Shown here piece by piece: positions 28,085 to 29,340 of a stretch of 33,799 nt of DNA. Position numbers and translations under genes: made by a program. The notes beneath the pieces were generated by a model. It did not search any database, was not told the DNA's origin, and was given only the letters and a program-made list of their open reading frames with translations. The first letter of the stretch is position 1; the number at the start of each line of letters is the position of its first letter. The stretch is from an uncultured Pelagibacteraceae bacterium. Its GTDB lineage: Bacteria; Pseudomonadota; Alphaproteobacteria; Pelagibacterales; Pelagibacteraceae. The DNA is taken from NCBI GenBank assembly GCA_902556065.1, contig CACDUV010000009.1, positions 1 to 33,799 of the forward strand. The letters run 5' to 3'.

Positions 28085-28199
28085 TAATTTTACCTAGTAA
28101 TTTTAATTAAAATCAAATTTTAGTAAATTTTAATAATAAATTAGTTAATTGCATGAACTTTTAATTGTTTTAAAAAATTCTTTTGTTATAAGTCTCGCT

Positions 28200-28430
28200 A
28201 TGAAAAAAAATATTCATCCAAATTACCATGATATAAAAGTTGAAATGACTGATGGTACTCAGTTTGAAACGAAATCCACTTGGGGAAAAGAAGGGGATGT
28301 TCTTAAATTAGAAATTGACCCGAAATCTCATTCTGCTTGGACTGGTGGTAAACAAAAATTAATGGATAAAGGAAGAATAAGTAAATTTAATAAAAAATTT
28401 CAAAATTTTAAATCAGATAAAAAAAGTTAA
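28200..28430 (+). CDS. rpmE: 50S ribosomal protein L31, zinc-free form
   Basis: Large-subunit protein L31, part of an inter-subunit bridge. Seen: [19 protein letters not shown] at the start and [14 protein letters not shown] near the end, both L31 signatures. The zinc-binding cysteines of the E. coli type are absent; the protein has no Cys. I start it at the ATG at 28200, matching the family N-terminus (76 aa); an upstream TTG at 28149 would add 17 unrelated residues. There is no clear Shine-Dalgarno. The next gene begins at the base after its stop. The preceding 115-base gap is AT-rich with no clear element. Confidence 0.94.
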
Positions 28431-28994
28431 ATGTCAAATGCACCTTTGATGCCAATGGCGACAGCTGTATGGCTTGTTGAAAATACCACGCTAACATTCA
28501 AACAAATTGCAAATTTTTGTAAACTACATGAAGTTGAGGTTCAGGGTATAGCTGATGGTGAAGTTGCGAAAGGTATAAAAGCTTATAATCCAATAATATC
28601 AGGTCAGTTAACTAGGGAAGAAATTGAGCTTTCATCAAAAAACGAGAACAGACCATTAGAAATTAAAAGTAATGATATAGAAATTTCAAACACAAGTGAA
28701 AAAATAAAAAAATATGTTCCTATTTCTAAAAGACAAGATAAACCAGATGCTGCATTATGGTTGCTTAGACAACATAACATCCTAAAGGACTCTCAGATAG
28801 CAAAATTGGTGGGAATTACAAAGAACTCTGTATCCTCAATAAGAAATAAAAGCTATTGGAATTATAATAATTTAAATCCGAAGGATCCTGTAGCATTAAA
28901 TTTATTTAGTCAAAAGGACTTAATTGAGTCAATTGAAAAAGCCGAAAGAAGATTGAAAAGAGAAAAAAAACAAAAAGAAAAATCTGTAAAATAA
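28431..28994 (+). CDS. DUF1013 family, TrcR-like cell-cycle regulator
   Basis: Alphaproteobacterial DUF1013 family; databases name members cell cycle transcriptional regulator TrcR, as I recall. Seen: the family N-terminus PLMPMATAVWLVENTTLT, a first helix-turn-helix-like segment (about residues 20-45, FKQIANFCKLHEVEVQGI), a variable charged linker, then KPDAALWLLRQHN and a second HTH-like segment (about 118-135, DSQIAKLVGITKNSVSSI), and a basic C-terminal tail. Length 187 aa. It directly abuts rpmE, so the two share a transcript. DNA binding is predicted only; targets are unknown. Confidence 0.8.
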   Translation: MSNAPLMPMATAVWLVENTTLTFKQIANFCKLHEVEVQGIADGEVAKGIKAYNPIISGQLTREEIELSSKNENRPLEIKSNDIEISNTSEKIKKYVPISKRQDKPDAALWLLRQHNILKDSQIAKLVGITKNSVSSIRNKSYWNYNNLNPKDPVALNLFSQKDLIESIEKAERRLKREKKQKEKSVK

Positions 28995-29058
28995 ATTTTA
29001 AATTATGAATAATATCGATAGACATAAAATATTAATAATGATAAATAATCCCTTTTTT

Positions 29059-29063
29059 GGAGG
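29059..29063 (+). promoter_or_regulatory. Strong Shine-Dalgarno GGAGG that points to an ATT start for rpsU
   Basis: GGAGG at 29059-29063 is 5 bases before ATT at 29069. The candidate standard starts TTG (29057) and GTG (29063) lie on or inside the Shine-Dalgarno itself and could not be served by it. Confidence 0.6.
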
Positions 29064-29068
29064 TGGTT

Positions 29069-29263
29069 ATTAAAATAGAAGTCAAAGATAATAATGTTGA
29101 GCAAGCTCTACGGGTTTTGAAAAGAAAACTCCAAAGAGATGGTTTTTTTAAAGTGATAAAACTAAAAAATACTTATGAAAAACCATCTGAAAAGAAAAAA
29201 AGAATTCTACAAGAAAATATCAAAAGAGTAAAAAAACTTAATAAACTTAAAAATAGAATTTAA
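29069..29263 (+). CDS. rpsU: 30S ribosomal protein S21, probable ATT start
   Basis: Small-subunit protein S21, which lies near the mRNA exit and anti-Shine-Dalgarno region. Seen: VKDNNVEQALRVLKRKLQRDG and YEKPSEKKKR, the family core, then a basic tail. Aligned to the usual alphaproteobacterial start (MQVLVRDNNV), the initiator Met falls on ATT at 29069, which also has ideal spacing from GGAGG. Alternative starts are GTG at 29063 or TTG at 29057, adding 2 or 4 residues; either overlaps the Shine-Dalgarno. Length from ATT is 64 aa. The stop TAA is directly followed by the first base of initiator tRNA. Confidence 0.93.
   Translation: MKIEVKDNNVEQALRVLKRKLQRDGFFKVIKLKNTYEKPSEKKKRILQENIKRVKKLNKLKNRI

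Positions 29264-29340
<77 letters not shown>

Follow-up and report, generated by a model that had tools for sequence, protein, structure and literature searches.

Initiation factor IF3 discriminates against start codons outside the set AUG, GUG and UUG, and infC and sigR are controlled in this way (PMC5472188). In Flavobacterium johnsoniae, ribosomes without bS21 prefer the rpsU mRNA with its strong Shine-Dalgarno sequence (SD), thereby regulating bS21, and in Flavobacteriales rpsU typically stands alone as a strongly SD-led gene (PMC9976891). The rpsU locus of SAR11 described here links these two separate known systems, that is, starts policed by IF3 and feedback of S21 via the anti-SD. In the literature covered, which excludes most subscription papers, we found no report of a SAR11 rpsU with a non-AUG start; a survey of non-AUG starts (arXiv 2008.10758, cited in PMC9845219) may include rpsU.

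SAR11 bacteria rank with the most abundant cells of the ocean. The window, the whole stretch of 33,799 nucleotides analysed here, is a piece of a SAR11 genome whose assembly is 74% complete; its close matches come from Pelagibacteraceae. It carries the genes bL31 (28149-28430), trcR (28431-28994; PF06242), rpsU and tRNA-Met (29264-29340), in this order, the last three on the forward strand. The rpsU reading frame was assigned to bS21 by PF01165 (E 1.8e-15, 56.8 bits against a gathering cut-off of 27) and by its conserved start position; it runs from 29069 to 29263, with 64 codons counted from ATT followed by the stop codon TAA (29261-29263). The open frame begins with the codons TTG, GAG, GTG, GTT, ATT, AAA, ATA, GAA and GTC, in which TTG occupies 29057-29059, GGAGG 29059-29063, GTG 29063-29065 and ATT 29069-29071. 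The first-pass annotation had proposed ATT as the start codon of rpsU. The GGAGG five bases 5' of ATT (spacer TGGTT) was confirmed, and the comparative tests across 211 distinct loci agree with the proposal.

In the window's family we read 239 rpsU loci, 188 of them found by protein and family searches that are blind to the start codon and 51 by pattern searches; since the start codon was the criterion for choosing these 51, they inflate the share of ATG and ACG. Loci identical from -60 to +190 were considered duplicates, and the removal of 28 of the 239 left 211 distinct loci (two weak extra S21 matches in genome G056, L169 and L170, were excluded from the counts). The position of the window's ATT holds only four codons in these 211 loci: ATT (188), ATG (16), ACG (5) and ATC (2). 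In the start-codon-blind subset (n = 188, duplicates kept), the corresponding counts were 177, 5, 4 and 2. Pattern counts in 399 genomes of the window's genus gave ATT, ATC or ATA in 279, ATG in 16 and ACG in 5, with neither pattern in the 99 remaining genomes, where the gene is absent from the assembly, has diverged or has another start. Each non-AUG start codon seen is one letter off AUG. The window's ATT lies seven codons 5' of the conserved NN, at the same place as GTG in many other Alphaproteobacteria, and 16 close relatives have ATG exactly at this codon; the alignment of the initiator Met on ATT in the earlier annotation is borne out by both. Moreover, ACG substitutes for ATT in five genomes with GGAGG retained, and neither Val nor Leu codons were seen at this position in the 188 start-codon-blind loci. 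The ATT does not behave as an internal isoleucine codon, because a conserved Ile would drift to Val or Leu and not to Thr (ACG). Judging from these alignments, no canonical start explains the N-terminus, the start codon is conserved across relatives, and the SAR11 S21 gene almost certainly does start at AUU.

That translation truly starts at TTG (29057) or GTG (29063), with ATT as an internal Ile codon, is very improbable. TTG does occur at codon -12 in 154 of 189 ATT loci (drift at codons -12 and -6 was counted in 189 ATT loci, before the last duplicate removal), and phage S21 homologs have ATG or TTG 0-3 codons 5' of the aligned position. However, the remaining loci have AGG (10), CTG (9), TCG (3), other codons (8) or even a stop (TAG 4, TAA 1) at codon -12, and codon -6 is GTG in only 14/189. 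In the comparison of SAR11 leaders that the annotation had suggested, the strong SD and the near-cognate codon are kept while the TTG and GTG codons drift. An ATG in relatives at either of these two codons, which it had named as evidence against ATT, was looked for and not seen among the 189 ATT loci; the relatives with ATG have it at the ATT codon. No canonical start lies upstream in frame in 26 of the 195 non-AUG loci, and seven of these 195 frames have no ATG, GTG or TTG at all. The distance between SD and ATT is 5 nt in 95/96 loci of the window's genus (g1) and in g19, 4 nt in g16, 6 nt in g12 and g18, 5-6 nt in g15 and 9 nt in g13, so that the upstream reading frame is not kept. In addition, 174 of the 195 non-AUG loci have GAG as the codon over the SD and 5 have GGG, but none has GAA, unlike the window ORFs as a whole, in which GAA outnumbers GAG 546 to 137. 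Six ATT loci have an in-frame upstream ATG (3), GTG (2) or TTG (1) 21-36 nt away, and one g15 locus (L472) has ATG at the beginning of the rpsU frame; all seven codons lie 5' of the SD and are not widely shared. Taken together, the seven frames lacking ATG, GTG and TTG and the out-of-frame shifts in SD-ATT spacing between genera argue against both upstream codons, and with the drift and the stops at codon -12 they led us to reject them as starts. On these comparative grounds, it is the T run and the SD that produce the TTG and GTG codons as by-products.

The strength of the SD is closely associated with the start codon. In the window, the SD GGAGGTG (29059-29065) pairs with the SAR11 16S tail GGATTACCTCC at -13.2 kcal/mol, the last pair being G-U. 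This tail, read from four genomes (L381, L378-L380), matches the GGAGGTA common in rpsU; E. coli has GGATCACCTCC in its place. A strong SD was found in 195/195 non-AUG loci (GGAGG 189, GGGGG 5, GGAGA 1) and in 0/16 ATG loci (Fisher p 2.4e-24 for 211 loci, not corrected for kinship), and the combination of AUG with a strong SD, which would be expected to yield the most S21, was not seen in the 211 loci. Mean pairing energies with the SAR11 16S tail were -12.3 kcal/mol for ATT (188 loci, range -8.2 to -15.9), -12.5 for ACG and -2.8 for ATG, and a seemingly decayed SD is visible in three ATG loci (L397, L398, L399). A tree was built from 132 of the 211 loci (those with ATG or ACG, those from other genera, the window and a random draw of 90; rows with less than 250 nt upstream were omitted). 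The best tree required at least 4 changes between AUG and non-AUG and 4 changes for SD presence. The ATG loci fall into two groups, one of which is a supported clade of 11 rows (6 ATG and 5 ACG). Well-supported branches hold just 2 independent pairs, and counted as independent events the coupling is not significant (sign test p 0.5). Sixteen genomes do without both the near-cognate start and the strong SD; AUG without an SD is an alternative solution.

A strong SD is unusual in these genomes. Using mechanically set ORF starts, the mean SD energy was -3.17 kcal/mol in G012 (190 ORFs in 200 kb) versus -3.35 at a mock site, and -3.38 versus -3.06 in the 34 window ORFs, where rpsU reaches -13.2; the same method gave -5.90 versus -4.16 kcal/mol in E. 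coli (41 ORFs in 50 kb). Just 1 of the 190 sampled G012 genes has an SD energy of -11 kcal/mol or lower. In G091, from the second family of the order (f2), there is a mild general SD signal (13% versus 4% of genes at or below -7 kcal/mol) under an assumed 16S tail, the 16S gene of this genome having been searched for and not found. In the window's genus, SDs are thus little used, and outside rpsU few of the sampled SAR11 genes have a strong one. The genus resembles Flavobacteriales in this respect, because its sampled genes are hardly SD-led while rpsU is strongly so. We also screened ORFs of at least 90 aa for near-cognate starts with plain SD motifs, a design that would miss starts without an SD. 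No SD-led near-cognate start near the beginning of a frame without a canonical start close by was found in 196 ORFs of G012 and 189 of G091, and ATT as a general SAR11 start codon was rejected, as this screen gave no further case.

Upstream of the SD, other elements are conserved. A T run (29053-29058) directly precedes the SD and is conserved together with it, with a mean of 5.3 T out of 6 in the 195 non-AUG loci versus 3.6 in the 16 ATG loci; it fades where the SD is lost. Further 5', the arrangement TAGACA, 17 nt, TG-N-TA is conserved (TAGAC in 188/211 loci; the -10 columns T, G, T and A at 99% each among these 188). From this conservation alone we propose a probable rpsU promoter with a -35 element TAGACA (29019-29024) and, 17 nt after it, an extended -10 element TG-N-TAAATA (29039-29047); a consensus promoter scan reported no site on the forward strand. 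If this promoter is right, the mRNA 5' end would lie in or next to the T run and leave a leader of about 20 nt; should transcription start there, the T run might serve in slippage or in S1 binding. A leader hairpin was rejected: compared with shuffled sequences, a 61-nt segment spanning the SD folds less well than the majority (z 1.56). Because of this result, and since the probable 5' end is close to the SD, we propose no structured leader element.

The near-cognate start and the strong SD were seen together in all 13 listed genera of the order, and only some g1 genomes use AUG. In g17 (1 genome) and g14 (3 genomes; a fourth without a match), GGAGG and ATT are found with a stop codon just before. 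In f2, 45 loci were given, all of them readable; the 38 distinct ones start with ATA (37) or ATC (1) after GGAGG (37) or GGGGG (1), mostly in the form TAAGGAGGG, 8 nt 5' of the start, and 35 of the 38 lack any in-frame canonical start further upstream. The f2 start codon lies one codon upstream of the position used in the window's family, and the near-cognate property therefore persisted although both the codon and its place changed. Among 50 rpsU loci of the wider Alphaproteobacteria (30 best-scoring and 20 chosen), 48 were readable by eye and start with GTG (28), TTG (8), ATG (8) or ATA/ATC-like codons (4). The last four, candidates from other alphaproteobacterial families (L343, L357, L434, L445), are possibly independent origins; in L357 and L434 a GTG is also present in or near the SD. 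Viral S21 genes have ATG or TTG at the aligned position or up to 3 codons before it (56 readable of 57 loci, by eye), and phage rpsU was rejected as the source of ATT, as the viral loci start with ATG or TTG.

What might the weak start be used for? Our main reading, to which we give a probability of roughly 0.5, is that it ties S21 synthesis to SD pairing and to initiation stringency, most likely as a negative feedback by S21. The weak codon would be kept by selection. For a 30S subunit to start at AUU, its 16S tail would have to pair with the strong SD and its initiation factors to accept the codon-anticodon mismatch. Subunits lacking S21, with a freer 16S tail, would initiate best on rpsU mRNA and S21 would be refilled, while S21-replete subunits facing AUU would largely ignore this mRNA; IF3 would set the threshold. 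Feedback is the most likely use because S21 adjoins the 16S tail with its anti-SD. The weak codon would make the SD indispensable, and S21 synthesis would therefore track how available the anti-SD is and how stringent initiation is. Comparison of the loci shows the start codon and the SD, how the two are coupled and how widely they occur in the order, whereas we infer the feedback, the direction of the S21 effect and the dependence on IF3. Older work in E. coli is said to have found that S21 helps expose the anti-SD, an effect of the opposite sign to that in Flavobacterium. Control of rpsU by initiation stringency, which we likewise infer, would fit the comparison, in which non-AUG starts always come with a strong SD and AUG never does; it would also fit the finding that infC has no near-cognate start in the window's genus. 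The SD side, which the annotation touched on only as the location of S21, looks at least as important as AUU, given how little the window's genus uses SDs and by analogy with Bacteroidota, where a strong rpsU SD is the hallmark of S21 feedback (PMC9976891).

Control by IF3 alone, in which the amount or activity of IF3 would set rpsU output and the SD would serve just to rescue the weak codon, with no S21 feedback, is an alternative that we regard as unlikely, though it is the strongest of those considered. AUU, AUC, AUA and ACG are all outside the AUG, GUG and UUG set that IF3 tolerates according to the study cited above (PMC5472188). The infC starts, deduced from the SD and the reading frame for the 30 best-scoring of 54 genomes with a match, speak in both directions. 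In f2, infC has ATA after GGAG (17/17 loci), as rpsU has AUA, and in g13 both genes have AUU (infC 2/2 loci), as if under one regime. In contrast, infC starts with GTG in g1 (8/8 loci) and g15 (1/1) and with ATG in g12 (2/2). In these 11/11 loci the IF3 loop is gone and rpsU keeps AUU; in the window's genus it is therefore rpsU, rather than infC, that carries the near-cognate start. By itself, IF3-only control also leaves unexplained why a rare strong SD is found on the gene of a protein adjacent to the anti-SD. As an observation in its own right, the textbook near-cognate start of infC was gained or lost within one order (L201, L299-L327).

The weak codon might also be a passive throttle: rpsU and the single initiator tRNA gene would share a strongly transcribed unit, and the codon would do no more than reduce the yield of S21, with no feedback; we consider this somewhat less likely still. 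The tRNA-Met (CAU; 29264-29340) directly 3' of the rpsU stop codon is presumably an initiator, as we take its C1-A72 ends to indicate. It begins 0-8 nt after the rpsU stop in 116/116 g1 loci and in 75/75 further Pelagibacteraceae loci tested (0 nt in the window, 3-8 nt in its relatives of the genus), and it is the only initiator match in the one-contig genomes G012, G081, G150 and G153, which favors a shared unit. In g19 the gap measures 6 nt; in g12 it is 17-25 nt for 3/4 loci, the fourth being too short to tell. However, no tRNA-Met was found within 220 nt of rpsU in g13, g15, g16, g18 and 42/42 f2 loci tested, where the near-cognate start is kept all the same, and for a plain throttle a strong SD is superfluous: AUG behind a weak SD suffices and is used by 16 genomes. 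A throttle by co-transcription with the tRNA was rejected as insufficient, since loci without a directly downstream tRNA keep the start codon. Several side observations concern this region. The junction between rpsU and tRNA-Met leaves no space for a separate tRNA promoter between the genes. In one g15 and one g16 genome (G191 and G295), the tRNA is found farther along the same strand, and a cold-shock gene directly follows rpsU in a g16 locus (L265; Pfam on the first 24 residues) and in a g15 locus (L272; by eye). Three G-C pairs are typical of the anticodon stem of initiator tRNA; in the window's stem (TCAGG/CCTGA) one of the three is A-U, which could have a bearing on IF3 stringency.

A broader proposal, which is tentative and about as doubtful as the throttle, would regard the SAR11 locus as a control unit of translation initiation. 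One promoter would give both the S21 mRNA, with AUU and one of the genome's few strong SDs, and the cell's only initiator tRNA. S21 synthesis would then read free anti-SD, IF3 stringency and initiator tRNA supply, and would take over the role that infC has in E. coli. Ribosomes ending at the rpsU stop codon might cover the 5' end of the tRNA and couple S21 translation to tRNA maturation.

Returning to feedback through SD pairing and initiation stringency, the start codon and SD of SAR11 rpsU suggest that S21 is controlled at the first step of translation. The trade between near-cognate start and strong SD in this gene offers a natural test of the purpose of near-cognate starts, and SAR11 lineages with and without the feature are available for comparison. 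In practice, gene finders limited to ATG, GTG and TTG will misplace or miss SAR11 rpsU, given the 7/195 frames without a canonical start.

Compared with known systems, the SAR11 locus is like E. coli infC, which is autoregulated by IF3, in having AUU on a gene of the initiation machinery; it differs in that the product is a ribosomal protein and not IF3, and infC of the window's genus starts with GTG. With Streptomyces sigR it shares a non-canonical start outside infC and a misleading canonical codon upstream; sigR, however, has a GTC start, encodes a stress sigma factor and had its repression by IF3 tested experimentally (PMC5472188), whereas SAR11 rpsU has AUU. The autoregulated rpsU of F. 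johnsoniae and other Bacteroidota (PMC9976891) has like SAR11 rpsU an exceptionally strong SD in an SD-poor genome. The Bacteroidota system is further marked by an anti-SD that sits in a pocket of bS21, bS18 and bS6, and by rpsU translation that increases when bS21 is lost. To the strong SD, SAR11 adds the near-cognate start, and feedback and anti-SD occlusion in SAR11 would follow by analogy. The SAR11 mean of about -12 kcal/mol, calculated with a different program, is weaker than the 9-13 bp and -14 to -21 kcal/mol given there for Bacteroidota. Finally, rpsU of other Alphaproteobacteria is not without likeness, since a non-AUG start stands at or next to the same place in 40/48 loci; yet GTG and TTG are canonical starts, whereas the AUU, AUA, AUC and ACG of SAR11 are not.
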